A DNA stretch of 50,017 bases. Source: Acidimicrobiaceae bacterium. GTDB lineage: Bacteria; Actinomycetota; Acidimicrobiia; Acidimicrobiales; RAAP-2. Positions within the stretch are counted from its first letter, which is position 1; every line of letters starts with the position of its first letter. The translations under genes and the position numbers were made by a program. The notes beneath the pieces are model-generated. The model was not told the origin of the DNA. It worked only from the letters and a program-made list of their open reading frames with translations, and searched no databases. This document shows, piece after piece, positions 23,672 to 49,383 of this stretch. The stretch spans positions 1 to 50,017 of the forward strand of contig JAOBWI010000043.1 of the NCBI GenBank assembly GCA_025463285.1, read 5' to 3'.

Positions 23672-24766
23672 TTACGCAATTGCGCAGCGATTGGGCCCCA
23701 CCTCAAGTGCAGACTCGTCACCGTCGGGTACGTCCTGACCCATGTTGATACGAACGATCTGCTGATAGTTACCCGGGCGATCCTTGACGTTCGCAACAGC
23801 CCAGTTCACAAAGGACTTTTCGTCGAGAGCAAGCGCGGGCAAGGCATTCCGCAAAGATCCGAGCCGTCGAGCCACGAACTCCCCGCTATATACCTCGACT
23901 CCTTGGCCAAAGTGTGCCGGAAACACGGTGATCTCGTCATTAAGAGGAAGGACCCTCTCGTGGAGGCTGTGATACAGGTGATGCGCGTAGTCCACCGCTT
24001 CGTCAGCCAAATCGGGCCGTCCCACGCTTTCTAAGAACAGCGTATCGCCGGTGAAGATGGCCTCCTCGGCCAACTGGTACATGGTGGAGCCTTCGGTGTG
24101 ACCGGGCACACTGACCGAGGACACCTTTAGGTCCACGCCGGGCGTGAGCTCGAGGGACTTTCCGTCCACCAACGGTTCAAAATCGAATCGGAAGGGTTCG
24201 GCGGGATTCAACCAGAGCTCCCCACCAGCGGCGCCAGCCAGCCCCCGGGCCCCACTGATGTGGTCCGCGTGCAAGTGAGTGTCGAACACGTGGGTAATAG
24301 TCCAGCCGTATTGCTCTGCCACATCGAAGTATTGCGACAGCTCCAAAGAGGGGTCAATAACTACGGCTCGCCTCCCCGCGCCGATGACGTAGGACAGACA
24401 TCCTTTGCCCCGTCGACGCACCTGAACGACGGTGGCACCAGCAAACTCTCCAGTCACGTGGTCGTACGTCGAGGACCACGCCCCCATGCCACCGTCGAGT
24501 ACGCGGCTCGCGAGCCCGTATTCGGCCAAGATTTCTGCACCCTTGAGAGCGCGAGTTCCTTTGGCGCACACCACGACGAGGTCGTGGTCGCGAGGAATTT
24601 CGTCGATACGCGACTCCAGCAACTCCAGCGGGTAGTTATGAGCCCCCGAGATGCTCCACGCCTCGACTTCGTCGGGTTCGCGTACGTCAATGAGATAGAG
24701 GTTGGCGGTATTCAATCGGGTCGCCAGGTCACTGCCGCTAATAAGAGGAATCGCCGCCGAAGTCAC
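23672..24766 (-). CDS. Rhodanese-metallo-beta-lactamase fusion, persulfide dioxygenase-like
   Basis: 364 residues. Residues 1-105 form a rhodanese domain with the persulfide-forming Cys67 in VVVCAKGTRA. Residues about 112-330 form a metallo-beta-lactamase domain with THLHADH (His164, His166, Asp168, His169), a later PGHTEG and FTGDTLF, the ETHE1/persulfide dioxygenase pattern. Known fusions oxidise glutathione- or other low-molecular-weight persulfides to sulfite and move sulfur through the rhodanese part; here the rhodanese is N-terminal. GTG start with TAGTCT six bases upstream: leaderless. Divergent from a second rhodanese gene 147 bp away, which suggests joint sulfide/persulfide control. 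Confidence 0.85.
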   Translation of the reverse strand: MTSAAIPLISGSDLATRLNTANLYLIDVREPDEVEAWSISGAHNYPLELLESRIDEIPRDHDLVVVCAKGTRALKGAEILAEYGLASRVLDGGMGAWSSTYDHVTGEFAGATVVQVRRRGKGCLSYVIGAGRRAVVIDPSLELSQYFDVAEQYGWTITHVFDTHLHADHISGARGLAGAAGGELWLNPAEPFRFDFEPLVDGKSLELTPGVDLKVSSVSVPGHTEGSTMYQLAEEAIFTGDTLFLESVGRPDLADEAVDYAHHLYHSLHERVLPLNDEITVFPAHFGQGVEVYSGEFVARRLGSLRNALPALALDEKSFVNWAVANVKDRPGNYQQIVRINMGQDVPDGDESALEVGPNRCAIA

Positions 24767-26648: not shown

Positions 26649-28241
26649 TCACGAGCCAGCGTAGGAAACGGTGAAGCCGTCCGTTGTCGAATTTGTCGGC
26701 GTTGCCAGTGTCACTCCGTTTTGAACGATTCCCCATTCTTCATCGGGCGTCAGCGACCACGATGAGAAACTGGCTCTCAAGTCGCTGAATGTAACCGAGC
26801 CGAAATTCGCGAATGGGTAAAGGGGGTTTCCGGGCGTCGCCGTACTTTCCTCGGGGTCTTCAACTATCCATTCAGCAGTGTATCCGCCAGAGTAGCTGTA
26901 CCCCGCGGCGTTACCTTGAGATGAAAAGGTGATCGTGCCACCCTCCGTCGGGCCAACACCCCACGCCTCACCCGTCACCATAAGCGCCGACAGTCCGGTG
27001 TTCAGATTGCTGACGAGGGTCTCCCACTCACCATTGGACAATTGAAAAACAGACGCCTTTATCTCGTTCCCCGCCGTTATTGGAAAGTGGGTGAACTCCT
27101 CCTCGTGGTTCGGGTTCGCAGGAACGACCTCCCACCAAGCCGAGTTCTGCTGAACGCCGTTCGCGCAACCCACTGAAATTCCCGTCTGGAGAAGGGCGCC
27201 TGACCATGATGTCGCGTTCCATTGCACGCCCCCTATGCCGATCCAAATAGAGTCCTCGCCATTTGGTGTGTCAGCGCAGTTCATTGTTGGAACAGTCCAC
27301 TCGCCCTCGGCATCAGTAAGAAGCGCGCTAGTCGAAGGGACAACATAGCCAGACCAGTTCGTCGACGCATTTACGAACTGCGTAGTCGATACGACGGTCC
27401 ATTGCGCGTAAAGCGTGACGCTGGCAGCGAAGTTGTATGTCGCGCCATTGGCGTAACTCGTGCCACTGCCAGATGCAGCTGTGTTCCAACCGCTAAAGCT
27501 GTACCCGGCTCGGGTAAAGACATCAGTCGTCAGTGCCGCCGAGAAGTTCAAGTTCTCAGTCTCAGAAGCCATCGTGCCGATCCCGCCATTGGCGTTGAAT
27601 GTGACGGCGGCCGTCGTTACCGAGCCCACGGTCCATTGCGCGTAGAAGGTAGCGCTTCCATTGAATTTCACAAGAGAACCGTCGTTGAACGCAGTACCGC
27701 TGCCGTTGGCTTTGCTGTTCCAACCGGCGAACGTATAGCCCACGTAGGTGAAAGTGTTAGGCGTGAGGGCGGCGGTCGCATCATAGGGCTCGGTCTCGGG
27801 AGCCATCGTGCCGATTCCGCCGTTGGCGTTGAAGGTGATGGAAATCGATCCGGTTGCTGTGACGACCTTCGATGGGAGTGAATATGCGCCTCTTCCAACC
27901 TTGGTTACGGCGGCAACTTGAAAGAAATACAAAGTTCCTGCTGTCAATCCCCCTATGCGACAGTCCGTCGCCGTGCAGGTGTAAGCGCGCTTCGTGACAG
28001 CCGTTTCGCTGAGGATGTCATAGCGATCGACCCTATAGCCACCGCTGGAAGAAGGGGGCAAAAAACGCACAGTCGCCGAATTGCTACCTGCAATGGCAGG
28101 TACGTCGCGAGGCTCACCTGGCCGTGCCCTGGTCGCCGCCGCTGCCGTTGAAGCAGACGCGAGAGTCGTAACGGACGCCAAAGGCAACGCAATTAGCAAG
28201 ACGATAGCGAATCGTTTGAGATGGCTCTTAACGTGCATCAT
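26649..28241 (-). CDS. Secreted Fn3-InlB repeat-G1 (eqolisin) peptidase
   Basis: 530 residues. Signal peptide about 1-36 (RFAIVLLIALPLASV, then ASA). Residues about 40-130: a fibronectin type III-like domain. Residues 131-204 and 208-283: two InlB B-repeats (Listeria-Bacteroides repeats), each with ITFNANGGIGTM or VTFNANGGIGTM and ending YAQWTV. Residues about 290-530: a family G1 glutamic peptidase with NWSGYVV, WIGIGGVQW, Gln352 in LLQTG and Glu457 in YTAEWIVE, the Gln-Glu catalytic dyad of eqolisins. These enzymes cleave proteins at acid pH, which suits an acid-tolerant secreting organism. The ATG pair at 28241/28238 follows GGGAG. AT-richer than the respiratory genes. Confidence 0.82.
   Translation of the reverse strand: MMHVKSHLKRFAIVLLIALPLASVTTLASASTAAAATRARPGEPRDVPAIAGSNSATVRFLPPSSSGGYRVDRYDILSETAVTKRAYTCTATDCRIGGLTAGTLYFFQVAAVTKVGRGAYSLPSKVVTATGSISITFNANGGIGTMAPETEPYDATAALTPNTFTYVGYTFAGWNSKANGSGTAFNDGSLVKFNGSATFYAQWTVGSVTTAAVTFNANGGIGTMASETENLNFSAALTTDVFTRAGYSFSGWNTAASGSGTSYANGATYNFAASVTLYAQWTVVSTTQFVNASTNWSGYVVPSTSALLTDAEGEWTVPTMNCADTPNGEDSIWIGIGGVQWNATSWSGALLQTGISVGCANGVQQNSAWWEVVPANPNHEEEFTHFPITAGNEIKASVFQLSNGEWETLVSNLNTGLSALMVTGEAWGVGPTEGGTITFSSQGNAAGYSYSGGYTAEWIVEDPEESTATPGNPLYPFANFGSVTFSDLRASFSSWSLTPDEEWGIVQNGVTLATPTNSTTDGFTVSYAGS
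27393..27851 (-). repeat. Two tandem InlB B-repeat coding units
   Basis: The two 74-76-residue units of the peptidase are alike at DNA level too; for example the stretches starting at 27559 and at 27793 share GCCATCGTGCCGAT followed by CCGCC and TTGGCGTTGAA. This indicates a fairly recent internal duplication. Confidence 0.65.
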
Positions 28242-32150: not shown

Positions 32151-33545
32151 CTAGGACGCCTTCACCGCGGCGACGATTTTCGTCAGCGTGTCTTTCGCGT
32201 CCCCGAAGATCAGCGTCGTCGTGGGGTTGTAGAGGAGTTCGTTGTCGATGCCCGCGAAGCCCGGGCGCATGGAACGCTTGAGGAAGAGCACGTTCTCCGC
32301 CAAGTCCGCGTGGATGATCGGCATCCCGTAGATCGGCGATGCGGGATCGCTGGCGGCCGCGGGGTTGACCGTGTCATTCGCACCAACCACCAACGCGACG
32401 TCGGCCGTCTGCAACTCGGAGTTGGCTTCGTCCATCTCCACCAGTTCGTCGTAGGGGACGTTGGCCTCGGCCAACAGGACGTTCATGTGTCCGGGCATGC
32501 GACCAGCGACGGGGTGAATGGCGTAGAGAACTTTGATGCCCTTGCTCTCGAGCTCGTCGGCCAACTCGCGCAACACGTGCTGGGCCTGGGCCACGGCCAA
32601 GCCGTAGCCCGGGATGATGACCACTTTGCTCGCGAAGGTCAATAAGACCGCCGCGTCCTCCGGGGATCCCGAGCGCACGCTGCGCCCCTCGACGCCACTG
32701 GCGCCGGTCGCCGTAATGTTCGAGCCAAAGGCCGAAAACAGCACGTTGGAGAGGCTGCGGCCCATGGCTTTACTCATGAGGCGAGTGAGCAAAATACCCG
32801 AGGCCCCGACCAAGGTGCCCGCAATGATCAACAGGTTCGAGCCGAGCGTGAAGCCCGAGGCGGCCACGGCGAGTCCGGTGAAGGAGTTCAGCAGTGATAT
32901 CAAGACCGGCACGTCGGCGCCGCCGATCGGCAGGACGAAGGCGATACCAAGAACGAACGCCACCGCCAAGAGAAACCAGAGCAACGCCGTCGATCCGCTC
33001 ACCAGAATGGTCACGATGAGCCCGAGAGCCGCCAGGCCGATGACGGCGTTGATGATCTGTTGACCGGGATACGTGACGGGTCGACCCGTCATTAGTTCTT
33101 GCAACTTGGCAAAGGCGATGGCCGAACCAGAGAAGGACACCGTTCCGATGAGAACGCCGAGCAAGACCTCCAAGGTCACGTAGGTTGCGGGGTTCGACGA
33201 TTTGATGTGGACGAACTCGGTGATGGAAACGAGCGACGCCGCGCCACCGCCCACCCCGTTGAAGATGGCGACCAGTTGGGGCATAGCCGTCATCTGCACA
33301 AAGCGCGCCGTGGGAACGGCCACCAGAACACCGATCAACATGGCGAGCAATATCAGGTCGACGTGGTGCAGTGGGTGACCGTCGACATACTTAAAGAACG
33401 TCGCCACGATCGCGACGAGCATGCCGAAGGCCGCCACCATGTTGCCGCGTCGCGCGTGCTTGGGACTACCCAGGCCTTTCAGGGCAACCAGGAACGTCGT
33501 CGCCGAAAAGAGGTAGAGGAGGTCAATCAGCGTTTCGCGACTCAC
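32151..33545 (-). CDS. pntB: NAD(P) transhydrogenase subunit beta
   Basis: 464 residues. About nine membrane helices (1-260) form part of the proton channel; residues about 290-464 are the NADP(H)-binding domain III, with IIPGYGLAVAQAQHV, HPVAGRMPGHMNVLLAEA and VGANDTVNPAA. With the alpha subunits it couples hydride transfer between NADH and NADP+ to proton entry. GTG start overlapping the pntAB stop (GTGA). Last gene of pntAA-pntAB-pntB. Confidence 0.96.
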   Translation of the reverse strand: MSRETLIDLLYLFSATTFLVALKGLGSPKHARRGNMVAAFGMLVAIVATFFKYVDGHPLHHVDLILLAMLIGVLVAVPTARFVQMTAMPQLVAIFNGVGGGAASLVSITEFVHIKSSNPATYVTLEVLLGVLIGTVSFSGSAIAFAKLQELMTGRPVTYPGQQIINAVIGLAALGLIVTILVSGSTALLWFLLAVAFVLGIAFVLPIGGADVPVLISLLNSFTGLAVAASGFTLGSNLLIIAGTLVGASGILLTRLMSKAMGRSLSNVLFSAFGSNITATGASGVEGRSVRSGSPEDAAVLLTFASKVVIIPGYGLAVAQAQHVLRELADELESKGIKVLYAIHPVAGRMPGHMNVLLAEANVPYDELVEMDEANSELQTADVALVVGANDTVNPAAASDPASPIYGMPIIHADLAENVLFLKRSMRPGFAGIDNELLYNPTTTLIFGDAKDTLTKIVAAVKAS

Positions 33546-33859
33546 GCGGCGTCCTTCGACTTGGTGTCAGGCGCCTTGGGCTTGCGGGCTTTGAACATCT
33601 CCAGCATGCGGTCGGTCACCACGAACCCGCCCACCACGTTGAGGGTGGCCAAAATAACCGCGAGAAAGCCCAGTACCTCTTCGAGGTTCGTGTTGGCCGA
33701 GCCGAGGATGAGCATGGAGCCCACGATGATGACGCCGTGGATGGCGTTCGAACCACTCATGAGAGGCGTGTGCAGGATGCTCGGCACTTTGGAAATGATC
33801 TCCGTGCCGACGAAGGCCGCGAGGACCAACACTGTCGCGTACTGCAGTAGGGCGTTCAT
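33542..33859 (-). CDS. pntAB: NAD(P) transhydrogenase subunit alpha, membrane part
   Basis: 105 residues with three hydrophobic helices: domain II part of the alpha subunit as a separate protein, as in many actinobacteria and alpha-proteobacteria. HTPLMSGSNAIHGVI is the conserved membrane motif. A charged lysine-rich tail follows the last helix. It overlaps its neighbours on both sides by 4 bp (ATGA before, GTGA after), so the three subunits are translated together. Confidence 0.95.
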   Translation of the reverse strand: MNALLQYATVLVLAAFVGTEIISKVPSILHTPLMSGSNAIHGVIIVGSMLILGSANTNLEEVLGFLAVILATLNVVGGFVVTDRMLEMFKARKPKAPDTKSKDAA

Positions 33860-35013
33860 GTTGCGCTCTCCTTCACAACTACTTCGGGCTCGAGAGGGGT
33901 GGGCGTCACGCCCAGCGCTTCAGCGCTCGCCACGTGACTAATCGCGCCATTGCGCGCAATGGTGACGCCGAGCACGATCTCGTCGTTCCAGTCCGGAGCC
34001 AGTTCGCCCTTCGTGCCGAAGAGACCTAACAGCTTTAAGACGTTGTTGGCGTAGAGAAAACTCGCGTGCGTACCCATCTCGGCGGGCGGATTTGCCAAGC
34101 CCACGATGCGCACGCCCTGGTGGGTCACGACCTCACCCACTTTGGTCAGTTCCACGTTGCCGCCGCCGTCGGCCGCCATGTCGATGATGAGAGAGCCTTC
34201 GGCCATCGCTTCCACCATGGTGGTCGTCACCAAGATCGGTGCCTTTCGCCCGGGCACGGCGGCCGTGGTGATCACCACGTCGGAGTTGGCCACTTCGCTC
34301 AACAGCGCGGCCTGTTGTTGCTGGCGTTCTTCATCGGTCAGTTCGCGCGCGTATCCTCCCGCCGCGTCGGCCGTCACCCCGAGTTGGACGAAGGTCGCCC
34401 CGGCCGACTCCGCCTCTTCCTTCGCGGCGCTTCGCACGTCGTAGGCCCGCACCCGAGCCCCGAGACGCTTAGCCGTAGCGATCGCTTGCAGACCGGCCAC
34501 TCCCACGCCCATGACGAGCACCTTGGCCGGGCGAATCGTGCCGGCGGCCGTGGTGAGAAGCGGAAAAAATCGATCCAGATACGTCGCGCCAGCCAAGGCC
34601 GCGCGATACCCCGATACCGTCGACTGCGAGGAGAGCGCGTCCATGTACTGCGCACGCGAGATCCGCGGCAATAGGTCGAAGGAGGCAATCGTCACTTTTC
34701 GGTCGTTCAGCGCCTTGACCACGTCGAGCGACAGGAGCGGCGAAAGGAAGGAGAGATGGAAAGAACCCTCCTTCACTCGCGCCACTTCCTCGAGGGTGGG
34801 AGCGTTGACGCGAAGATTCACGTCACCCGTGGCGGCCTCGACGATAGAGGCTCCGCTCGAGCGATAACTCTCATCGTCAAAGTGAGCTAACTGTCCTGCT
34901 CCGCTCTCCACCACAACCGACCAGCCGTCAGCGACGAGGGTCTTCACGGCGTCGGGAGTGAGCGCGACTCGGGTCTCACCGGGGCGCGACTCTTTAAAGA
35001 GCGCAATTTGCAT
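33856..35013 (-). CDS. pntAA: NAD(P) transhydrogenase subunit alpha, NAD-binding part
   Basis: 385 residues, soluble domain I. Alanine dehydrogenase/PntA pattern: ESRPGETRVALTPDAVKTL at the N-terminus, the dinucleotide fold VLVMGVGVAGLQAIATAKRLG at about 165 and the DMAADGGGNVELT loop. Binds NAD(H) and docks on the membrane subunits. The start ATG is preceded by TAGAAC and six bases with no clear ribosome binding site, similar to the leaderless layout elsewhere. First gene of the pnt operon; divergent from the MGMT gene. Confidence 0.95.
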   Translation of the reverse strand: MQIALFKESRPGETRVALTPDAVKTLVADGWSVVVESGAGQLAHFDDESYRSSGASIVEAATGDVNLRVNAPTLEEVARVKEGSFHLSFLSPLLSLDVVKALNDRKVTIASFDLLPRISRAQYMDALSSQSTVSGYRAALAGATYLDRFFPLLTTAAGTIRPAKVLVMGVGVAGLQAIATAKRLGARVRAYDVRSAAKEEAESAGATFVQLGVTADAAGGYARELTDEERQQQQAALLSEVANSDVVITTAAVPGRKAPILVTTTMVEAMAEGSLIIDMAADGGGNVELTKVGEVVTHQGVRIVGLANPPAEMGTHASFLYANNVLKLLGLFGTKGELAPDWNDEIVLGVTIARNGAISHVASAEALGVTPTPLEPEVVVKESAT

Positions 35014-36234: not shown

Positions 36235-37647
36235 CTACGTGGTAGCGGGCGGAGTATCTAAGCGCTCGCCGTCGCGGCGAACGAGGAGCTCGATACGCGA
36301 ACCGTTGGCGACTTCTACGAAGCGGGCCGAGCCGCCGTGTCGTAGCGCGATCTCGCTCACGATGGCCAATCCCAGGCCCGTTCCCCCCGAGCGGCGCGAG
36401 CGGGCCGAGTCCGCCCGCGAGAAGCGTTCGAAGAATCGAGCGCTGTCGGACACGTCAATCCCGTCGCCGTCGTCGCTCACCACAACCACGGCGTCCTCAC
36501 CATCGAAGTGGGAGTCGAAGCGCAGCTCACTCTGGGCGTATCGCATCGCGTTGTCGACCACGTTGCGAATCATGCGCTTGAACATGGTGGGGTCCCCCAT
36601 GACTCGCGTGGGTTGCACCGCGGAGGTGTCCACACTCAGCTCGCTGATCGAACGAACTCGCGAAGCTTCTTCGTAGAGAAGGTCATCAAAGTCCACCTCC
36701 ACCCGTTCAGAGTCAAGGTGGTCTTCGTCGTGTCGAGCGAGCCAGAAGAGGTCAGCGATGATGCCATCGAGGCGGCGACCCTCACGCATGATGACCTCAG
36801 CCGCCTCGGGCCAGTTCGCTCCCTCGGGATCGCCCGTGGCCCGTTCGGTCGTGGCCAACAAGGTGGTCAAGGGGCTTCTCAGTTCGTGACTGGCGTTGGA
36901 GACGAACTCCTGTTGGAATCGCGACGCCGCCTCCAAGCGATCAAGCATCTCATTCACCGTCCTCGCCATTCGGGCGATCTCGTCGTCCCCCCCGGTCACC
37001 GGGACACGTTGGGTCAGATCCTGAGCGGCAATGGCGTCGACTCGTCGACGTATGGCCTCCACCGGAGCCAGGGCCAGACCAATACCAAGCCAGATCAGCC
37101 CGCCGGACATTAAGAGCAGCAACGGGAAAGAGATCAACAAGCTGGCCAACAACACGCGCACGCTGTGTTGAATGGGGCCGCCGTACACGAAGCCGAAGAC
37201 GAGTCCCGGACCGCGTTTGGTTATGATCGAGGCCACCTGTCCGTTGCTCAACTCCGCCAACGTGGGATTGGTCTTCGTGTTGCGAATAAACCTGACCCCA
37301 AGGCCGCTGCCGGCGGCGGCGTCGGGGTAGGGGTGCGCCAAGACCGGAGCATTTTCAATAGCCGAACTGGCCGCCCACACTTTGGTTCCCTGGGAGTTGG
37401 TGACCTGGACCACGATGTCGCCTTGCGTGGAAAGAACCACCATGCGATAGATCGGCTTGGTCGCGGTGGCGAAGCGTGTTTGGGTCTGCACCATGACCTC
37501 GTCGATCTGGTTGGACGCCTGACCCAAGAGTGACTGGTGCACCAGGTTGACCAACGCGATGCCGGTGAAGATCAAGATGACGGCGATCGCCAGAACGAAG
37601 ATCAGGGTGAGGCGAGCTCTAATCGAGAGTTTGCGCTTCTCGGCCAT
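36235..37647 (-). CDS. Sensor histidine kinase (HAMP, HisKA, HATPase)
   Basis: 470 residues. Two membrane helices (about 11-36 and 163-195) enclose an extracytoplasmic sensor of about 125 residues; then HAMP (about 195-245), HisKA with His254 in SNASHELRSPLTTL, N-box RNVVDNAMRYA, G1 DDGDGID and G2 GTGLGLAIV. Autophosphorylates and passes phosphate to the response regulator, whose stop overlaps its ATG (TAATG). The signal is unknown; being the third gene after the DoxX-Rieske protein suggests redox or sulfur status at the membrane. Confidence 0.93.
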   Translation of the reverse strand: MAEKRKLSIRARLTLIFVLAIAVILIFTGIALVNLVHQSLLGQASNQIDEVMVQTQTRFATATKPIYRMVVLSTQGDIVVQVTNSQGTKVWAASSAIENAPVLAHPYPDAAAGSGLGVRFIRNTKTNPTLAELSNGQVASIITKRGPGLVFGFVYGGPIQHSVRVLLASLLISFPLLLLMSGGLIWLGIGLALAPVEAIRRRVDAIAAQDLTQRVPVTGGDDEIARMARTVNEMLDRLEAASRFQQEFVSNASHELRSPLTTLLATTERATGDPEGANWPEAAEVIMREGRRLDGIIADLFWLARHDEDHLDSERVEVDFDDLLYEEASRVRSISELSVDTSAVQPTRVMGDPTMFKRMIRNVVDNAMRYAQSELRFDSHFDGEDAVVVVSDDGDGIDVSDSARFFERFSRADSARSRRSGGTGLGLAIVSEIALRHGGSARFVEVANGSRIELLVRRDGERLDTPPATT

Positions 37648-38333
37648 TAGCTTTCGCGCGCGCTGTATCCAAAACCTCGCACCGTGCGAATCACGGACGG
37701 CTGAGTAGCGACGTCAATTTTCTTGCGGAGGTAGCCCACGTAGACCTCGACGATGTTCTCATCCCCGTCGAAGTCGCTCCCCCACACCACCGACAGAATC
37801 TCGGTCTTTGAAAGGGTGGAGTTCGAGTGGCTCATGAGGTACTCGAGCAGCGAGAACTCTCTGGGCGTCAAGGTCACGTCACGACCGTGGGAGGAGACGT
37901 GACGACTCACCGGGTCGAGGGTCACGGGGCCGACGGTGAGTTGTTGGGGACGGCCCCGCTCTTGGCGCCGTAGCAGGGCGTGAATTCGGGCCATCAAGAC
38001 CGATCGCTCGAAGGGCTTGCGCAAGAAGTCGTCGGCGCCGACGTCGAGCCCTTCGACTTCGTCCCACTCCCCCTCCTTGGCCGTCAGCATCAGCAAGGGC
38101 GTCTGCACGCCGGCCGCGCGCAGGTCCTCACAGACGCGAAAGCCGCTGCGCTTGGGCAACATGATGTCGAGCACGATGACGTCGTAGTTGCCGTGTAGCG
38201 CCTCGTCCAGGCCGCTGTCGCCGTCGTAGCGCTGGACGACCACGAAGCCCTCGTCGACCAAGAGACCGGCCACCGCGTCGGCGAGGTCGTGATCGTCTTC
38301 TACAAAGAGCACCCTGCGGGATTCATCGCTCAT
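37647..38333 (-). CDS. OmpR-family response regulator
   Basis: 228 residues. Receiver domain 1-120 with the acidic pair in VEDDHD, phosphoacceptor Asp56 in VLDIMLP and Lys in LRKPFE; winged-helix DNA-binding domain from about 130 with LTPREFSLLEYLM and VYVGYLRKKID. Its ATG overlaps the stop of the DoxX-Rieske gene (ATGA) and its stop overlaps the kinase start (TAATG), so one transcript makes all three. Likely autoregulates this operon. Confidence 0.95.
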   Translation of the reverse strand: MSDESRRVLFVEDDHDLADAVAGLLVDEGFVVVQRYDGDSGLDEALHGNYDVIVLDIMLPKRSGFRVCEDLRAAGVQTPLLMLTAKEGEWDEVEGLDVGADDFLRKPFERSVLMARIHALLRRQERGRPQQLTVGPVTLDPVSRHVSSHGRDVTLTPREFSLLEYLMSHSNSTLSKTEILSVVWGSDFDGDENIVEVYVGYLRKKIDVATQPSVIRTVRGFGYSARES

Positions 38334-39649
38334 TCCAAGTAGAGGTTACCGTTGCTCCCTTCGACGATAGTGAGCTTGGTCAGACCACGTGTGGCCGGTC
38401 CCTGTATGACCTCACCACTGCTCACTTGAAACTCCGATCCGTGGCAGGGACAGACGATGATCTTGGTGGCCGTTGAGTATCCGACGGTGCAGCCCATGTG
38501 CGGACAGACCGCGTTGAAGGCGACAAACGGCCCGCTAGCGGTGTGAATGACGATGCCGGGGTCATTGTTCGAAGGAATGGTGAAGACCGCCGCCGAGTTT
38601 TCGGGCACTTCGCGGGCGGTGCCGATCAGCGATCCCGGGTGAGTCGGGGACGTGGTCGTGGTGGTCGACGGGGTCGTGGTGGTCGACGGGGTCGTGGTGG
38701 TCGACGTCGTCGTGGTGGTGGGTGCGTTCGGCGTCGTGGTCGTGGTCGTGGTGGTGGTGGTTGCGATCGTCACGGGCGTCGTCGTAGTGGTGGTGCTCGG
38801 AACCGAGAGAGCGCGAGGCGACTTCGGCTTCGGGGCGTCGCCGATGAGCTGTCCCGTGTCGGCGACCGCGCCTCCCAGAAGTAGGACGCCCACACCGGCG
38901 GCGGCGGCGCTCAGCCCACCCACGATCAACGTCCGTCGGTCCACGTCATCGACCACTCGGCGCATCACCAGGGGGGCTCGAGCGCCGAGCAAGACCGGAC
39001 AGAGCGCCGCGTCACACGGCGCGCCACCTCGAGCGCTACAGTCACCCTCCACGAAGTTGCCGCAGATCGCTTGGACGGTTGCGAAGGGGATGGGGACCAA
39101 CTCCGGTGACGAGCGGCCCGACTTCTTCGCCAGACGAGAGGCGATCCACCCGTCCAGTGAGAGCCGAGTGCCACCGCCGGCGACGAGAAGCGGCAGCCAG
39201 GCGAAAAAGAAGACGATGTCGGCGCCCGTGAAGTAGGGCGACGAGTGATAGCTCACGGTGAGGAAAAGACTGAGTGAGAGCACTAACCCCCCGAGCGCGG
39301 CGAGACGAGTCCACAGTCCGAGCACCGTGCCGAGGCCGACGGCTACTTCGCCGAAGGCAATGGCGAGGCCGAGGGGCTTGGCGGCCCCGAGTAGGTGCGA
39401 GAGGAGAGCGTGAATCGGACTGGTGTGGGTCGCCGCCAGTAGTTGCGCCTGAATGGAGATGGGACTTTTCGCCTTAAAGAAATTGGGGTTCGCCAACTTC
39501 TGTAAGCCGGCGTAGAGAAAGCTCACGCCAATGAAGAGTCGCAACGGCACCAGGGCCCACTCACTGAGGGCCCACGCGCGAACCGGCGCGTGAAAGGGCA
39601 AACCTCGCTCGTCGCGACGCGCCGCCGAATTCGAGGGGGAGGCGCTCAT
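38330..39649 (-). CDS. DoxX-Thr linker-Rieske fusion protein, internal Tat-like signal
   Basis: 439 residues in five parts. Residues 28-165: four-helix DoxX/DoxD-type domain (DoxD is a subunit of thiosulfate:quinone oxidoreductase). Residues 190-220: Cys196, Cys204, Cys212 and Cys217, a possible metal site. Residues 238-265: DRRTLIVGG and a hydrophobic helix, like the Tat-dependent helix of actinobacterial QcrA. Residues about 285-335: Thr-rich linker. Residues 345-439: Rieske domain with C382PHMGC387 and C400PCH403, all cluster ligands and the disulfide pair present. Inferred: a membrane protein exposing a [2Fe-2S] cluster outside, moving electrons from a sulfur compound or quinol. First gene of an operon with a two-component system. 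Confidence 0.85.
   Translation of the reverse strand: MSASPSNSAARRDERGLPFHAPVRAWALSEWALVPLRLFIGVSFLYAGLQKLANPNFFKAKSPISIQAQLLAATHTSPIHALLSHLLGAAKPLGLAIAFGEVAVGLGTVLGLWTRLAALGGLVLSLSLFLTVSYHSSPYFTGADIVFFFAWLPLLVAGGGTRLSLDGWIASRLAKKSGRSSPELVPIPFATVQAICGNFVEGDCSARGGAPCDAALCPVLLGARAPLVMRRVVDDVDRRTLIVGGLSAAAAGVGVLLLGGAVADTGQLIGDAPKPKSPRALSVPSTTTTTTPVTIATTTTTTTTTTPNAPTTTTTSTTTTPSTTTTPSTTTTTSPTHPGSLIGTAREVPENSAAVFTIPSNNDPGIVIHTASGPFVAFNAVCPHMGCTVGYSTATKIIVCPCHGSEFQVSSGEVIQGPATRGLTKLTIVEGSNGNLYLE
38655..38706. repeat. 18-bp tandem repeat encoding the Thr-rich linker
   Basis: GTCGTGGTGGTCGACGGG at 38655-38672 and 38673-38690, with a partial third copy to 38706; further imperfect GTGGTG/GTCGTC runs continue to about 38800. 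On the coding strand they give TTTTP-like units. Prone to slippage, so linker length may vary between strains. Confidence 0.75.
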
Positions 39650-39731
39650 CGTTCCATCGTGGCACAGCCCCTTTCGCGACTCCCCGGCAGCGGGTCGCCT
39701 TTAGAAAACATTTATCCACCACAATGGAGAC

Positions 39732-40406
39732 GTGTCCAGCGCCTCCATCGTGTCCTACCTCGTGGGAAGAATCCAAGACCTGCCCGGCGGGCTCGTCTAT
39801 GGACTGGTGGCGTTGCTCGTCTTTAGTGAGGCCGGACTCTTTTTCGGATTCATTCTGCCCGGCGAGACGGCCGTCCTCGTGGGCGGCGTCGTGGCCAGCA
39901 AGGGTCACGTCAACATCGTGACCTTGTGCGCGGTCGTCGTGGTGGCCGCGGTCGCTGGTGACTCTCTCGGCTACGAAGTGGGGAAGCACTACGGCGAGCG
40001 ACTCCTCACCCTGCCGATCATTCGTCGACGTAAGTCGGGGGTGGAGCGAGCGCTCCAGGGTCTGCGCCGACGGGGCCCGATCTACGTCTTCGTGGGTCGC
40101 TTCACCGCGTTTCTGCGAGCCATCATGCCGGCCCTAGCCGGCATGAGCCCCCTGTCGTATCGCCGCTTCTTCGTGGCCAACGCCTCGGGGGCACTGGTCT
40201 GGGGGGTGAGTTACGCGTTACTCGGGTACTTCGCCGGCGACGCCCTGACCTCTATCGAGCGCTACTCCGGTTGGGCCGGAGGGGCGATCCTGGTGCTGGT
40301 GGTGGGCGTCATCGTCGGGCTGCACTTTGTGAAGAAACGCGGCGAGAGACGCCTCGAAGCGAGGCTGCAAGATCACAAGGGCGACTCAGCGCAAGGCGCT
40401 CAGTAA
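39732..40406 (+). CDS. DedA-family membrane protein
   Basis: 224 residues with about five hydrophobic segments. DedA/SNARE-associated motifs: EAGLFFGFILPGETAVLVGG near the N-terminus and GRFTAFLRAIMPALAGMS in the middle, with the conserved arginines. DedA proteins act in lipid carrier (undecaprenyl phosphate) or phospholipid flipping and need the proton gradient. GTG start, without a clear ribosome binding site; CACAAT lies six bases before. The last 21 bp overlap the end of the convergent GH1-like gene. Divergent from the DoxX-Rieske operon. Confidence 0.9.
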   Translation: MSSASIVSYLVGRIQDLPGGLVYGLVALLVFSEAGLFFGFILPGETAVLVGGVVASKGHVNIVTLCAVVVVAAVAGDSLGYEVGKHYGERLLTLPIIRRRKSGVERALQGLRRRGPIYVFVGRFTAFLRAIMPALAGMSPLSYRRFFVANASGALVWGVSYALLGYFAGDALTSIERYSGWAGGAILVLVVGVIVGLHFVKKRGERRLEARLQDHKGDSAQGAQ

Positions 40407-43617: not shown

Positions 43618-43665
43618 GAGCGCAGGCGGGATAAGCGCCCTTAAAATTTGAGTAAGGTTTCCAGA

Positions 43666-44514
43666 GTGGAACCACCAGCCCTGCCCCCCCAGGGAGTTTC
43701 GAAACGCTCTCGTCGATGGCGTCGCGTGAGCCGATTGGCGTTACTCCCCGTCGCTGCGCTCGCGCTGGCGGGATGCGTGCCCACCTTTGGCGCCGCCCCC
43801 GGCGCCACCACTAGTTCCAAGTCCGCTTTTCGCCTGTGGCAAGGCTTCACCGTCGGCGCCATCATCGTGGGGGGCATTACCACCGTCTTAATCGTGTGGG
43901 CCGTCGTGTTCTACCGCCGACGGGGCGACAACATCCCCAGGCAAAGTCAGTACAACCTTCCCCTGGAGTGGACGTACACGATCATTCCGATCCTGGTGGT
44001 GCTCGGACTGTTCGTCGCCACGATGGTCGTAGAAAACAAAGAAGAGGCACTGCCAAAAACGAACGTCACCATCGAAGTCAACGCCTTTCAGTGGGGCTGG
44101 CAGTTCATCTACCCCGGCAAAGAAGTGGTGGTGGTGGGCCAGACCACCCAAGACCCCACGATGGTCATGCCCGTCAACGAGAACGTGCACATCAACCTGA
44201 CCTCGTCTGACGTCCTCCACGGTTTCTACGTGCGCTCCTTTAACTTCTCGCGCTACGCCCTGCCGGGCGTGCTGAACCAGTTCACCTTGCGCGCGGTTGA
44301 TGTGGGCACGTACCACGGTCAGTGCACACAGCTCTGTGGCCTATATCACTCCCTCATGGTCTTTCGGGTGAAGGTCGTCTCCCAGTCGCAGTATGCGTCG
44401 TGGCTGAGCGCCCACTACAACCCGAAGGCGGCCAACGCCGCGCAGGCTGCGTTGAATCAGCAGACGTCGTCGATCGTCCCGACGACGCCCTACAAGAGCG
44501 AAGGGAACAACTGA
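43666..44514 (+). CDS. ctaC: Cytochrome c oxidase subunit II
   Basis: 282 residues from GTG at 43666; a TTG 18 bases upstream is the alternative. TAAGGT lies seven bases before the GTG, as in the leaderless genes. The N-terminus is basic, then a lipoprotein signal ALALAGC. Two helices follow, then the cupredoxin domain with the full CuA motif C-TQL-C-GLY-H-SL-M and FQWGWQF for cytochrome c docking. It receives electrons from cytochrome c. Followed by ctaD with a one-base overlap (TGATG). Confidence 0.95.
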   Translation: MEPPALPPQGVSKRSRRWRRVSRLALLPVAALALAGCVPTFGAAPGATTSSKSAFRLWQGFTVGAIIVGGITTVLIVWAVVFYRRRGDNIPRQSQYNLPLEWTYTIIPILVVLGLFVATMVVENKEEALPKTNVTIEVNAFQWGWQFIYPGKEVVVVGQTTQDPTMVMPVNENVHINLTSSDVLHGFYVRSFNFSRYALPGVLNQFTLRAVDVGTYHGQCTQLCGLYHSLMVFRVKVVSQSQYASWLSAHYNPKAANAAQAALNQQTSSIVPTTPYKSEGNN

Positions 44515-46214
44515 TGACCGACGTACTCGACCCTCCCGTCGTCCACGAGTCGCACGAACCCGAGCACGAGGAGCACCACGGCCCGACGGGAATCTTGAAG
44601 TGGATGACCTCGACCGACCACAAGGTCATCGGTATGTCGTACACCATCACTTCGGTGCTCATGATGGTGATTGGCGGCATCTTCGCCGAGATTATTCGCG
44701 CCCAACTCACGACGCCGAATAACAGCCTCGTTTCACTGGCCCAGTACAACGAGCTCTTCACCATGCACGGCTCGGTCATGATCTACCTCTTCATGGGGCC
44801 TTTCGCCTTCGGCGCGCTGGCCAACATCATCGTGCCCATCCAAATCGGTGCCCCGGACATGGCCTTCCCCCGTCTTAACGCTCTGAGCTATTGGCTCTAC
44901 CTGACCGGTTCGATCACCATGCTCTCGGGCTTCTTCGTCGCCGGCGGCGCGGCCAACTTCGGCTGGGTGGCCTACGCGCCCTTATCCAACTCGGTCAATA
45001 CCCCCGGTGCCGGAGCCGACCTCTGGATCGGCGGACTGCTCCTCACGGGTTTCTCAGCCATCTTTACCGGGGTGAACCTCACGGCCACCATCTTCTATCT
45101 GCGAGCACCGGGAATGACGATGTTCCGCATGCCGATCTTCACTTGGAACCTCTTGATCACGGCAATCTTGATCCTCTTGGCTTTCCCGGTACTAACCGCC
45201 GGGCTCATCATGCTGTACTGCGACCGACACTTCGGGACCCATATCTTCTCTGTCGCGGGAGGTGGTGTGCCCGTGCTCTGGCAGAATATTTTCTGGTTCT
45301 GGGGTCATCCCGAGGTCTATATTTTGGCCCTGCCGATCTTCGGCATGGTCACAGAAATCATCGCTGTCTTCTCCCGCAAGCCCGTCTTTGGCTACAAGGG
45401 AATGGTCTTCGCCACGCTGACCATCGGCGCGCTCTCCCTCGGCGTGTGGGCTCACCACATGTTCACGACGGGCGTCGTTCTCCTTCCCTTCTTCTCCATC
45501 ATGAGCCTGCTCATCGCCGTACCGACGGGCATCAAGATGTTCAACTGGATCGGCACCATGTGGCGAGGGCAAGTCTGGTTCTCGACCGCGATGTTGATGG
45601 CCATAGGCTTTCTCTTCACGTTCCTGGTGGGCGGCATCACCGGCATCTACTTGGCCAGCCCCCCGCTCGACTTCTTCACCCACGACACCTACTTCGTGGT
45701 CGCGCACTTTCACTCGGTGGTGATGGCCTTAATGATGGGTGCCATGGGCGCGCTGTACTACTGGGGCCCCAAGATGACCGGCTACCTCTTGAACGAGCGA
45801 ATCGGCAAGGTCCAGTTCTGGCTGCTCTTCATCGGAACCCAAGTCTTTACGTTCCCCATGTACATCTTGGGACTGCGCGGTATGCCGCGACGCATCGCGA
45901 TCTATCCGTTGCACCCCTCGTGGCAGTACCTAAACGGCGTGGCCTCCGTCGGAGCGATGCTGATCGGCCTCTCGACCGTCGCCTTCTTGGTGAACATCGC
46001 ATACAGCTGGAAGAAGTACCCGGCCGGTGACAATCCCTGGGACGGTCACACGCTGGAGTGGTTCACCACCTCGCCCCCTCCCCACCACAACTTCTACCGG
46101 CTGCCCCAGATTCGTTCGGAGCGCCCGACCTGGGACTACAACCACCCGGGACACCAGGCCGCGGCTCACGGACACTTAGCCGAAGCCCTGATCGAAAGTG
46201 ACGTCAACTCGTGA
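44514..46214 (+). CDS. ctaD: Cytochrome c oxidase subunit I
   Basis: 566 residues, about twelve helices. Haem-copper motifs: FTMHGSVMI (haem a His), WFWGHPEVYILALP (CuB His and the cross-linked Tyr), HHMFTTG (CuB His pair) and HFHSVVMALMMG (haem a3 and haem a His). This is the proton-pumping aa3-type core. The N-terminus is His/Glu-rich. The ATG overlaps the ctaC stop by one base and its stop overlaps the ctaF GTG (GTGA). Subunit III is not in this window. Confidence 0.97.
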   Translation: MTDVLDPPVVHESHEPEHEEHHGPTGILKWMTSTDHKVIGMSYTITSVLMMVIGGIFAEIIRAQLTTPNNSLVSLAQYNELFTMHGSVMIYLFMGPFAFGALANIIVPIQIGAPDMAFPRLNALSYWLYLTGSITMLSGFFVAGGAANFGWVAYAPLSNSVNTPGAGADLWIGGLLLTGFSAIFTGVNLTATIFYLRAPGMTMFRMPIFTWNLLITAILILLAFPVLTAGLIMLYCDRHFGTHIFSVAGGGVPVLWQNIFWFWGHPEVYILALPIFGMVTEIIAVFSRKPVFGYKGMVFATLTIGALSLGVWAHHMFTTGVVLLPFFSIMSLLIAVPTGIKMFNWIGTMWRGQVWFSTAMLMAIGFLFTFLVGGITGIYLASPPLDFFTHDTYFVVAHFHSVVMALMMGAMGALYYWGPKMTGYLLNERIGKVQFWLLFIGTQVFTFPMYILGLRGMPRRIAIYPLHPSWQYLNGVASVGAMLIGLSTVAFLVNIAYSWKKYPAGDNPWDGHTLEWFTTSPPPHHNFYRLPQIRSERPTWDYNHPGHQAAAHGHLAEALIESDVNS

Positions 46215-46603
46215 AAAACGAGGCGAAGATGCTCGTCGGCCTCGGGATGTTCTTCGGCGTGATGTGCCTCGTCTACTGGCTCTGGTCGAAAGAGCAGGGG
46301 GGCAGCGTCATGATGTTGGCCGGCATGCTGCTCTGCTTCCTGCCGGGCAGCTACTACTTCTGGTGGAGCCGTCGGATGCGGCCCCGCGCGGAGGACGATC
46401 CTAAAGCCACCCAGGCCTCGGGCGCTGGGGTGATCGGGACCTTCCCGGGCACGTCGATCTGGCCCTTCACGATGGGTATGGGCGCCTTCTTCGTAGTGCT
46501 CGCGTTGGTGTTTGGTATTTGGTTCTTAGTTCCGGGCATCGGCCTCGTGGGCTGGGCACTCTTCGGGGGCACCTCCGAAGGTCGTCGCGGCGGTAAGCAC
46601 TAG
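46211..46603 (+). CDS. ctaF: Cytochrome c oxidase subunit IV, actinobacterial type
   Basis: 130 residues with four helices: two in the first half (LGMFFGVMCLVYWLW and MLAGMLLCFLPGSYYF) and two after the FPGTSIWPFTMGMG motif. The layout matches the actinobacterial CtaF, an essential small subunit of aa3 oxidase; its presence supports the phylum assignment. GTG start overlapping the ctaD stop. Ends with a basic RRGGKH tail. Confidence 0.9.
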   Translation: MKNEAKMLVGLGMFFGVMCLVYWLWSKEQGGSVMMLAGMLLCFLPGSYYFWWSRRMRPRAEDDPKATQASGAGVIGTFPGTSIWPFTMGMGAFFVVLALVFGIWFLVPGIGLVGWALFGGTSEGRRGGKH

Positions 46604-46691
46604 CTCACCGCTCGAAGTAATGGCGCAGCGTTCGACGGCATCGAGTGTTGTGACGTGTGTTGTTGGGCTTAGGCACTGTGACGTGCTTGCC

Positions 46692-46697
46692 TAGTAT
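46692..46697 (+). promoter_or_regulatory. Putative -10 box of the succinate dehydrogenase operon
   Basis: TAGTAT in the 131-bp gap after ctaF. Two copies of GTGACGTG (46650-46657, 46678-46685), 28 bp start to start, lie just upstream and could bind a regulator. The ribosome binding site GAGGAG follows 25 bp later. Confidence 0.35.
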
Positions 46698-46734
46698 GGA
46701 TTTGCTGTTCAGGGGACTACAACGAGGAGAAACA

Positions 46735-47550
46735 GTGACGGCCCTAGAGAGTTCAACGAAAGTTCAACTGGGGGGGAAACGCGGAGGTCCCGACCAGCGG
46801 ACCCTGCGCCAAGATCACTGGGCTATCCAGCCCTTCGCGATTGTGACGTTGCTCAGTGCCTTCGTCATCTACTCCACGTGGGCGGCCTTTCAAAATAAGT
46901 ACTACTTCGTGGGCGCCAACGTCCACCGGGACCTGATCTCGCCGTTCTACTCCCCGTGCGTCGGAGGCTCCTGCGTCCCCGGCGCCAAGTTCGCCTTCAC
47001 CTGGCACTGGTGGACCTGGTCGCCGGCCCTGATAATTCTCGCCTTTCCCGGAGGGTTCCGCTTCACTTGTTACTACTACCGGCGCAGCTACTACCGGGGG
47101 TTCTGGAGATCGCCCCCTAGTTGCGCGGTGGCGGACGATCACGGAAACTACTCGGGAGAGACTCGCTTCCCCCTGATTTTTCAGAACTCGCACCGTTACT
47201 TCTTCTACATCGCACTGATCTTTAACGTGTTGTTGACCTACGACGCGGTCCTCTCGTTTCACCAGCCCGGACTTGGCTGGGGTGTCACGGTGGGCACCAT
47301 TGTGTTGAGCGCGAACGCGGCGCTGCTCTGGCTGTACTCGCTGTCGTGCCACGCCTGTCGCCACCTCTGCGGCGGTCAGGTGAAGAGCTTTAAGGCTCAC
47401 CCGCTGCGCTATCGCTTCTGGAAGTTCGTGACTCCTCTCAATGCGAAGCACATGAACTTCGCCTGGGCCTCGCTCTTCGTGGTGGCCTTGGCCGACGTCT
47501 ACGTACGCCTGGTCGCCTCGGGCGCTATCACCGACTACAAGCTTTTCTAG
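46735..47550 (+). CDS. Succinate dehydrogenase/fumarate reductase membrane anchor
   Basis: 271 residues from GTG with GAGGAGAAACA upstream. About five helices with several His, including FAFTWHWWTW, QNSHRYFFYIALIFN and CHACRHLC. It is the single-protein anchor type found beside sdhA-sdhB in actinobacteria; haem and quinone binding are probable. No separate sdhD is visible, and 15 bp separate it from sdhA. Residues 70-85 carry a Cys pair in SPCVGGSC of unknown role. Confidence 0.8.
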   Translation: MTALESSTKVQLGGKRGGPDQRTLRQDHWAIQPFAIVTLLSAFVIYSTWAAFQNKYYFVGANVHRDLISPFYSPCVGGSCVPGAKFAFTWHWWTWSPALIILAFPGGFRFTCYYYRRSYYRGFWRSPPSCAVADDHGNYSGETRFPLIFQNSHRYFFYIALIFNVLLTYDAVLSFHQPGLGWGVTVGTIVLSANAALLWLYSLSCHACRHLCGGQVKSFKAHPLRYRFWKFVTPLNAKHMNFAWASLFVVALADVYVRLVASGAITDYKLF

Positions 47551-47565
47551 GTTTAAGGACGTTTT

Positions 47566-49383
47566 GTGAGCGAGCCCAGGTACGAACAACACGAGTACGA
47601 CGTACTCATCATCGGCGCCGGCGGCGCGGGACTGCGCGCGGCCATCGAAGCCCAGCAGCGCGGTCTCAAGGTCGGCATCATCACCAAGTCGCTGTTGGGT
47701 AAGGCCCACACCGTCATGGCCGAAGGCGGCATGGCCGCCGCCATGGGTAACGTCTACCCCGACGACAACTGGATGGTCCACTTTCGCGACACCATGCGCG
47801 GTGGCAAGTACCTCAACAACTACCGCATGGCCGAGTTACACGCGAAAGAAGCGCCCGATCGCGTCTGGGAGCTCGAGCAGTGGGGTGCCCTTTTCGATCG
47901 CACCAAGGACGGCAAGATCCTCCAGCGCGACTTCGGCGGGCACCGCTTCGCGCGACTGGCTCACGTGGGTGACCGCACGGGCTTGGAATTAATTCGCACC
48001 TTGCAGCAAAAGGTGGTCTCTATGGGTACCGACGTCTTCATGGAGTGCAAGGTCCTCCAGCTAGTCCACGACGCCCAGGGTCGCATCGCCGGGTGCGTAG
48101 GCTACTGGCGCGCCACCGGGGAGTTCGTCGTCTTCCAAGCGAAAACCATCATTCTCGCGACTGGCGGCGTGGGCAAGTCGTGGAAGATCACCTCGAACTC
48201 CTGGGAAGGGACGGGCGACGGACACGCCATGGCCCTGTGGGCCGGCGCCAAGTTGATCGACATGGAGTGCATCCAGTTCCATCCGACCGGCATGGTCTGG
48301 CCGCTCAGCGTGCGCGGACTTTTGACCACCGAGAGTGTGCGCGGCGACGGCGGGGTACTGCGCAACTCCCTGGGCGAACGATTCATGTTCAACTACGTCC
48401 CCGACATGTTCCGTGCCGAGACCGCCGACTCCGAAGAGGAGGGCGACAAGTGGTACGACGATCACAGCGCCGGACGGCGTCCCCCGGAACTCCTCCCCCG
48501 CGACGAAGTGGCCCGCGCCATTAACTCCGAAGTCAAAGCCGGACGGGGCAGCCCCCACGGGGGCGTCTTCCTCGACATCGCCTCGCGGCGAACGCCCGAG
48601 TTCATTCGTCGTCGCCTGCCCTCGATGTACCACCAGTTCATGGAGTTGGCCGGCGTCGACATCACGCGAGAGGCCATGGAGATTGGTCCGACCTGTCACT
48701 ACATCATGGGTGGCGTACAGGTCGACGCGGACACCGAAGAGACCGCTGTCCCGGGGCTCTTCGCCGCGGGCGAGGTCGCCGGCGGCATGCACGGGGCCAA
48801 CCGGCTCGGTGGCAACTCGCTGTCGGACCTGATTGTCTTTGGGCGTCGAGCGGGCCTCGGTGCGGCGGACTACGTCGCCGCGGGCAACGGGGCCACCTCC
48901 TTTAACCAGGACGAAGTGGACGCTGCTATCAAAGAGGCGCTGGCGCCCCTGGAGCGAACCGACGGCGAAAACCCCTACACCGTTCATCACGACCTCCAAG
49001 ACTTGATGCAGGCCGACGTGGGCATCATTCGTAACGCCCTCGAACTGGAAGAGGCTCGCGTCAAGCTCGATGAGTTCACTGAGCGGATCAAGCACGTCGC
49101 CGTCAAGGGCGGCCGGAGTTACAACCCCGGTTGGAATCTGGCTACGGACCTGCCCGCCATGATGACGGTCTGTCGAAGCGTCACGCTGGGGGCCACCCTG
49201 CGTAAAGAATCCCGCGGCGGACACACCCGCGAGGACTTCCCTAACCCGGACCCCGAGTTGGGCAAGATCAACTTCGCCCAACGTTCTGACGGCGGTCACT
49301 GGGACAGCCCGATCACCGTGGAGGAGTCACCGATTCTGGTGCTGCCCGCGGAGTTAAAAGCGCTACTCGAGGAGGCGAAGTAA
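47566..49383 (+). CDS. sdhA: Succinate dehydrogenase/fumarate reductase flavoprotein subunit
   Basis: 605 residues. FAD fold VLIIGAGGAGLRAAIEA at 13-29; covalent-FAD His48 in KAHTVMAEGG; capping domain with FHPTGM and TESVRGDGG; active-site region HGANRLGGNSLSDL. It oxidises succinate to fumarate (or the reverse) and passes electrons to SdhB. GTG start with AAGGAC upstream. Ends with a one-base overlap (TAATG) with sdhB. Confidence 0.97.
   Translation: MSEPRYEQHEYDVLIIGAGGAGLRAAIEAQQRGLKVGIITKSLLGKAHTVMAEGGMAAAMGNVYPDDNWMVHFRDTMRGGKYLNNYRMAELHAKEAPDRVWELEQWGALFDRTKDGKILQRDFGGHRFARLAHVGDRTGLELIRTLQQKVVSMGTDVFMECKVLQLVHDAQGRIAGCVGYWRATGEFVVFQAKTIILATGGVGKSWKITSNSWEGTGDGHAMALWAGAKLIDMECIQFHPTGMVWPLSVRGLLTTESVRGDGGVLRNSLGERFMFNYVPDMFRAETADSEEEGDKWYDDHSAGRRPPELLPRDEVARAINSEVKAGRGSPHGGVFLDIASRRTPEFIRRRLPSMYHQFMELAGVDITREAMEIGPTCHYIMGGVQVDADTEETAVPGLFAAGEVAGGMHGANRLGGNSLSDLIVFGRRAGLGAADYVAAGNGATSFNQDEVDAAIKEALAPLERTDGENPYTVHHDLQDLMQADVGIIRNALELEEARVKLDEFTERIKHVAVKGGRSYNPGWNLATDLPAMMTVCRSVTLGATLRKESRGGHTREDFPNPDPELGKINFAQRSDGGHWDSPITVEESPILVLPAELKALLEEAK

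Follow-up and report, generated by a model that had tools for sequence, protein, structure and literature searches.

A DoxX–Rieske fusion protein and its recurrent tie to two-component systems in actinobacteria

The locus and the architecture of the fusion protein

We describe an operon-like gene set in a 50,017-nucleotide stretch of DNA (the window) on contig JAOBWI010000043.1 of an Acidimicrobiaceae bacterium, termed a soil actinobacterium, whose genome is 94% complete. A gene for a DoxX–Rieske fusion protein (DR) is followed on the minus strand by the response regulator and the histidine kinase of a two-component system (TCS). The DR stop and the regulator start share 4 bp (ATGA) at a junction that reads GGAATGAGC, and the kinase starts on the regulator stop with a 1-bp overlap (TAATG) at a junction that reads GCTAATGGC; the operon that an initial annotation of this DNA had claimed, with the two genes following the fusion at these overlaps, is thereby confirmed. 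The features are as follows.

38330–39649, minus strand: DoxX–Rieske fusion gene (DR), 439 residues, from translation of the open reading frame and Pfam
39125–39553, minus strand: DoxX/DoxD domain, residues 33–175, from Pfam, with four predicted helices
38999–39064, minus strand: four-Cys segment, residues 196–217, C-x7-C-x7-C-x4-C, predicted to be cytoplasmic
38852–38938, minus strand: twin-Arg (238–239) and fifth transmembrane helix of the twin-arginine translocation (Tat) type, residues 238–266, from the Arg-Arg alignment and a hydrophobic stretch
38636–38806, minus strand: Thr-rich tether, residues 282–338, 63% Thr, with a low predicted local distance difference test (pLDDT) score
38378–38623, minus strand: Rieske [2Fe-2S] domain, residues 343–424, CPHMGC...CPCHGS, from Pfam, a PDB sequence search and Foldseek
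37647–38333, minus strand: OmpR/PhoB-family response regulator, 228 residues, with Response_reg and Trans_reg_C (Pfam)
36235–37647, minus strand: histidine kinase, 470 residues, with HAMP, HisKA and HATPase_c (Pfam)
37153–37542, minus strand: extracytoplasmic sensor segment of the kinase, residues 36–165, AlphaFold2 pLDDT 79

First, the architecture annotated for DR, namely a DoxX/DoxD part, four Cys, a helix preceded by Arg-Arg, a Thr-rich spacer and a Rieske domain, is borne out by Pfam and by the residue positions. The N-terminal part matches both DoxX (PF07681, E 6.1e-9, residues 33–132) and DoxD (PF04173, E 2.9e-8, residues 34–175, 34.2 bits against a cut-off of 22.7), and the C-terminal part matches Rieske (PF00355, E 1.5e-12, residues 343–424), all above their curated cut-offs. 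In the AlphaFold2 model of DR (mean pLDDT 66, with the Rieske domain well built), the DoxX part forms helices at residues 23–53, 80–110, 114–133 and 141–157, the fifth helix spans residues 238–269, and the 57-residue tether is disordered. The best 50 of 519 Foldseek matches obtained with this model all are Rieske proteins or contain a Rieske domain; no fold match of the DoxX part itself, for which the model is weak, stands among those 50. Cys382, His384, Cys387, Cys400, Cys402 and His403, which by the Rieske rules we take to be cluster ligands and disulfide, are the same in all 29 aligned sequences, as are Arg238 and Arg239; the alignment holds the window and 28 of 34 genome-contig loci, leaving out L032, L056 and L060–L063 (L, G, C and f numbers are our handles for loci, genomes, contigs and families). 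The four Cys lie at residues 196, 204, 212 and 217, and the Arg pair immediately precedes the hydrophobic stretch of the fifth helix, with a mean of 2.1 Lys plus Arg in the 25 residues after that helix (28 sequences). The host genome has a TatC gene, which does no more than permit Tat insertion, and its second Rieske match is a 349-residue frame of QcrA size. By its sequence, DR would be a five-helix membrane redox protein, probably assembled by Sec and Tat together.

Actinobacterial QcrA-type Rieske proteins offer the nearest precedent for such assembly, with dual Sec/Tat insertion and a Tat-dependent last helix of low hydrophobicity, followed by positive charges (PMC5449189). As far as the available part of that source goes, DR resembles these proteins, and the five-helix Rieske homologue KSE_30950 of Kitasatospora, which Tooke et al. 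mentioned there in 2017 with no reference to DoxX, in having Arg-Arg before the last helix, an outer Rieske domain and an even number of helices before the Arg pair. It differs from QcrA in that its first helices are DoxX, that five helices are predicted rather than three, and that no cytochrome b or bc1 genes are found among the scanned neighbours of DR. The unit had been annotated as undescribed; no DoxX–Rieske fusion as such was found in the open-access literature, judged by titles and abstract openings, and in the literature searched it is touched on at most in passing, but the mention of KSE_30950 takes something from its novelty. DR may represent an additional type of five-helix Sec/Tat protein that carries a cofactor domain.

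What might such a protein do? In Acidianus, the thiosulfate:quinone oxidoreductase (TQO) DoxDA combines a DoxD-type membrane domain with a DoxA partner, and in mycobacteria a DoxX–SodA–SseA membrane complex places DoxX in a membrane redox role. DR shares the DoxD-type domain with the former, matching DoxD above the Pfam cut-off and the NCBIfam model TQO_large_DoxD weakly (21.8 bits against a cut-off of 300), so one could read it as a DoxDA-type enzyme with the fused Rieske domain as relay. However, a DoxA search, which matched one of 14 control genomes, found none in the host genome, and no sulfur-oxidation genes occur among the scanned neighbours, the sole sulfur link being a rhodanese/metallo-beta-lactamase fusion gene (23672–24766), presumably persulfide-dioxygenase-like, some 14 kb from DR. 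The thiosulfate link drawn in the initial annotation is thus unsupported, and we regard a TQO as the least probable of all the identities considered here. A SoxY search matched no control genome and is hence uninformative. Unlike in the mycobacterial complex, neither a superoxide dismutase nor a rhodanese stands directly beside DR among the scanned window neighbours.

Spread of the fusion and its four-Cys motif

Second, the fusion recurs across actinobacterial genomes, as expected of the annotated architecture: in the window's genus and order, in two outside families and in some Streptomycetaceae. Both the DoxX and the Rieske part match in 31 of 37 same-genus genomes, the window's own included; of the others, G021 has the C-terminal part only, at a contig end, G010 has DoxX only, and G011, G017, G029 and G033 have neither. 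The Rieske motif lies in the DoxX frame at 61 of 64 loci, which comprise L001–L030 from the genus genomes and L031–L064, the 34 genome-contig loci, two sets that share some contigs and are not independent. The misses are L020, at a contig end, and L056 and L060, whose frames break off after DoxX and before the Rieske part (close to the linker in L060), possibly through sequencing error. Across the window's order, 31 of 248 genomes have a match to the DoxX part, and in 26 of them the Rieske motif follows in the same frame; in the remaining five, G083 and G178 stop at contig ends, G193 and G074 have no Rieske motif, and G182 was not fetched. A phylum sample gave DoxX matches in 53 of 396 genomes, Rieske-less DoxX proteins among them. 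In f73 and f107, families of the same phylum outside the window's order, the motif is in frame at seven of nine loci (L105–L113), both misses running off contig ends. A chance or assembly-artefact fusion is ruled out, because both parts are conserved in one frame across loci of the genus, the order and other families. Among plasmids, 57 records match, and the best 40 of these match the Rieske part only.

Long-frame loci from genomes taken to be Streptomycetaceae comprise 11 true fusions out of 14, the other three being DoxX followed by a helix and a Ser/Thr/Pro tail without Rieske. Since tailed versions occur in this family both with and without Rieske, the scaffold of DoxX, Arg-Arg helix and tether is modular. 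Eight other Streptomycetaceae loci carry a long DoxX paralogue with an Arg-Arg-preceded helix and a tail and no Rieske motif; Rieske-less long paralogues with such a helix and a Ser/Thr/Pro tail were seen at L149, L170–L188 and L196–L198.

The four-Cys segment has a narrower distribution. After duplicate removal, 128 DoxX-family sequences were surveyed, 88 of them with the Rieske motif, and 57 of these 88 fusions have the four Cys (56 by script, plus L061, whose four Cys lie ahead of the stretch that the script covered). The spacing is 7-7-4 in 49 of 59 scored sequences, three of which lack the Rieske motif, 7-6-4 in four, 7-8-4 in three and different in another three; in a 13-sequence alignment of the segment, F, CG, G, C, C, CP and L are invariant. 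Within this collection, the motif is restricted to the window's order or to loci from metagenome-assembled genomes, and it is absent from the collected f73/f107 and Streptomycetaceae fusions. Because four helices precede it, the site should face the cytoplasm. It has no family match in Pfam or NCBIfam, and as a known domain it was rejected, the three PDB profile matches (E 0.89–7.4) looking like chance. Nor does it correlate strictly with the TCS: L002, L027, L028 and L066 have four Cys without a TCS, and L140 has a TCS without four Cys.

The motif is a candidate metal site, which raises the idea of a heavy-metal (copper or gold) stress module, in which the TCS would sense metal, DR would repair or buffer, and the four Cys would bind the metal. 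The best NCBIfam matches of the regulator and the kinase, at about 201 bits each, are indeed cztR_silR_copR (201.3 bits) and cztS_silS_copS (200.6 bits), and the metal-induced GIG operon begins with a DoxX gene; the exact role of DoxX proteins is stated to be unknown in the accessible part of the source (PMC5413113). Yet both scores fall below the curated cut-offs (279.2 and 292.55), the HvfX match of 16.9 bits is far below the NCBIfam cut-off of 80, and no metal exporter appears among the scanned window neighbours, so that a metal module seems improbable to us.

Association with two-component systems and a candidate control site

Third, a recurrent tie between DR and two-component systems is supported by the neighbourhoods of the collected loci. 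The regulator lies directly downstream of DR at 25 of 30 genus loci (absent from L002, L014, L027 and L028, with L020 at a contig end) and at 30 of 34 genome-contig loci (absent from L041, L054, L057 and L064). In f73 and f107, it is divergent from DR, within about 200 bp, at seven of the eight fetched loci L138–L145, the miss being L143; the distances at L140 and L142 come from a separate re-measurement, as matches overlapped, and G511 was not fetched in full. Among other Acidimicrobiales outside f1, a regulator lies within 2.1 kb at six of 18 fetched loci (L117, L121, L127, L133, L134 and L137), some of the 18 having less than 2 kb of sequence on one side, and at 4 kb at L116. For comparison, 14 regulator matches in the 2.15-Mb host genome give, by rough arithmetic, about 5% expected per 7-kb neighbourhood. 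All these neighbour counts come from related lineages and are not independent. The gene order of fusion and TCS, which had been proposed as a unit, is recurrent in the genus, but the architecture of DR is not confined to this operon.

Could DR and the TCS simply share a frozen neighbourhood without functional coupling? The block from the VTT-domain gene upstream of DR to the transhydrogenase genes is largely syntenic in the genus, and DR and TCS each occur without the other, as such a reading would allow. Against it stand the 4-bp and 1-bp overlaps in the window and the finding that regulators of at least three clades adjoin DR in different families and orientations. In a regulator tree of 32 rows, the sampled DR-adjacent regulators of f1 form one clade with that of G127 (f47), with support of 100/99; those of G117, G233, G126, G081 and G160 (f31, f45 and f47) form a second (100/100) together with another regulator of the window's own genome; and those of G289, G452 and G492 (f73/f107) form a third (100/100), while G057 is placed in none. 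Their orientation to DR varies among same-strand downstream, convergent, divergent and same-strand upstream. We therefore consider a frozen neighbourhood highly improbable.

Several genomes depart from the common arrangement. In G010 (L220:5085–5549), a lone 154-residue DoxX protein, above the Pfam cut-offs, ends 77 bp before the regulator, which is followed by the kinase; this DoxX-only gene looks like a case in which the Rieske part was lost naturally. The TCS of G022 lies on a different contig from DR, and the short contig with the DR fragment of G021 has another called gene (252 residues) after the fragment and no TCS. Neither DR nor TCS was found in G011, G017 (75% complete) and G029. The Streptomycetaceae locus L193 has a kinase match at 2.8 kb and a regulator match at 4 kb. 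In many relatives, an HTH_67 gene separates the kinase from the next membrane gene (e.g., L031:9329–10087); it is missing in the window.

Upstream of DR, a genus comparison points to a putative regulator site, facing a conserved neighbour.

39701–39716, minus strand: candidate 11-bp-period direct repeat GATAAATGTTTTCTAA, putative regulator site upstream of DR
39732–40406, plus strand: divergent VTT-domain (DedA-like) membrane gene, conserved neighbour of DR, from the domain scan and neighbour comparison

The repeat GATAAATGTTTTCTAA lies in the 82 bp between DR and the VTT gene. A repeat score of at least 12 of 15 is reached in 16 of 64 upstream regions, which amount to 12 distinct sites, some regions being from the same genome; shuffle values for the repeat are not independent tests because the consensus was drawn from the same sequences. 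The pattern GATAANNNTTNNNTAA has two exact matches in the whole host genome; a second site with the GATAA pattern, at C18:7517, runs into the 3′ end of a predicted gene and could have arisen by chance. By single-base shuffles of related sequences, self-similarity at lag 11 reaches a z of 3.8 in 54 upstream regions of f1 (lags 10 and 14 reach 3.0 and 3.6) and a z of 6.6 in six f73/f107 intergenic regions (next is lag 12 at 3.4). At the f73/f107 loci L138, L139, L141, L142, L144 and L145, short repeats of 11-bp period (such as TTACCG/TAACCG) lie between the divergent regulator and DR.

A possible feedback module and its neighbourhood

Finally, how might the fusion and the TCS work together? The closest functional parallel is found in Staphylococcus aureus, whose sae operon has the order saeP-saeQ-saeR-saeS. 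As far as the available parts of the two sources go, SaePQ induce SaeS phosphatase activity and are dispensable for activation, and SaeR recognises GTTAAN6GTTAA sites, also in front of saeP (PMC5083920); SaeQ is a predicted DoxX-family membrane protein, SaeP has a DM13-like domain with a presumed link to electron transfer, the Sae system reacts to the state of respiration, and SaePQ have been suggested as a possible sensor of a respiration block, by a mechanism left open (PMC7189620). As in the window, a DoxX-family protein and an outer domain presumed to be of electron-transfer type are followed by the regulator and then the kinase, and a direct repeat of 11-bp period, putative in our case, lies upstream of the operon. 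The two systems differ in that the outer domain of DR is a Rieske domain, fused through a Tat-type helix and accompanied by a four-Cys segment, whereas that of SaePQRS is the DM13 lipoprotein SaeP; no DM13 match was found in DR or in the scanned neighbours, the fused Rieske standing in its place. They also belong to different phyla, and the trio is likened by gene order and parts, not by sequence comparison with Sae.

Guided by this analogy, we tentatively favour DR as a membrane redox protein under TCS control with SaePQ-like feedback on the kinase. Sec would insert the first four helices of DR into the membrane; the Rieske domain would receive its cluster while still in the cytoplasm, and Tat would then insert the fifth helix, on the model of actinobacterial QcrA. 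On its tether, this domain would exchange electrons with an outer partner or with the quinone pool. The operon would be switched on by the regulator via the putative 11-bp-period repeat, and DR would feed its redox state or its own presence back to the kinase via the DoxX bundle, much as SaePQ act on SaeS. Because the regulator would act on the operon and DR would feed back, DR would be a target of its own TCS and probably its modulator as well; as DR persists without the TCS, we take redox activity as primary and feedback as an added layer. Such an operon could let cells sense the state of respiration. An electron carrier fused to DoxX should give a clean electron paramagnetic resonance signature, and both the exchange between DoxX and quinone and the talk with the kinase are directly testable.

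A number of results weigh against this proposal. DR occurs without an orthologue of the regulator in G013 (80% complete), G006, G012, G110 and G146, where the best matches have 40–45% identity, and the TCS is kept without DR in G204 and G033; the 11 Streptomycetaceae fusion loci have no regulator or kinase match within 2.5 kb. Of the 64 upstream regions, 48 show a weak repeat or none, many of them at loci with the TCS, and the repeat does occur at L002 and L041, which have no TCS; the lag-11 signal in f1 is weak and not exclusive because lags 10 and 14 come close behind. On a crude hydrophobicity scale, the fifth helix is less favourable than all of helices 1–4 in 0 of 28 sequences, so that the low hydrophobicity of a Tat-dependent helix does not show. 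The kinase, moreover, has a 130-residue sensor of its own, with no PDB fold match at E ≤ 0.001, whereas SaeS has a very short extracytoplasmic linker. The TCS is usually found directly downstream of the fusion, but not in the five relatives without a regulator orthologue, and two others have the TCS and no DR. That the kinase senses the output or substrate of the fusion, as the initial annotation had it, may be so, and the comparison with SaePQRS gives this idea a firmer footing than TQO does. Since the same five genomes keep DR without this regulator, DR probably has a function of its own too.

That function could be all there is. DR may be a plain electron-transfer enzyme, a quinol or sulfur-compound oxidoreductase whose expression is controlled by the TCS without any contact with the kinase. 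Its survival without the TCS in five genomes agrees with this, as does its place between transhydrogenase genes (32151–35013) and genes for cytochrome oxidase and a succinate dehydrogenase-type flavoprotein (43648–49383), both near the operon in the window scan; outside f1, only G127, among the tree loci, has a regulator of the window's clade. Yet no enzyme partner is conserved across families among the 20 neighbours scanned, a mixed set (HTH_67, alpha/beta hydrolase, amine oxidase, MFS, ABC, HipA, Kelch and others), and a plain enzyme does not predict the DoxX–regulator–kinase set without Rieske in G010. We find control without feedback a serious contender, and rank feedback closely ahead of it. 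A bolder idea, which we consider unlikely, is that the Rieske centre is itself the sensor: the outer [2Fe-2S] domain would read quinone or envelope redox state and set the kinase/phosphatase balance via the DoxX bundle and the four-Cys site. If true, a Rieske protein would here serve in signalling, as a fused iron–sulfur counterpart of SaePQ.

Elsewhere in the window, 26649–28241 encodes a secreted-looking protein whose C-terminal part has, by eye, what we take to be the look of an acid peptidase (G1/A4-type), and 20621–23191 encodes a repetitive Thr/Ala-rich protein of 856 residues.

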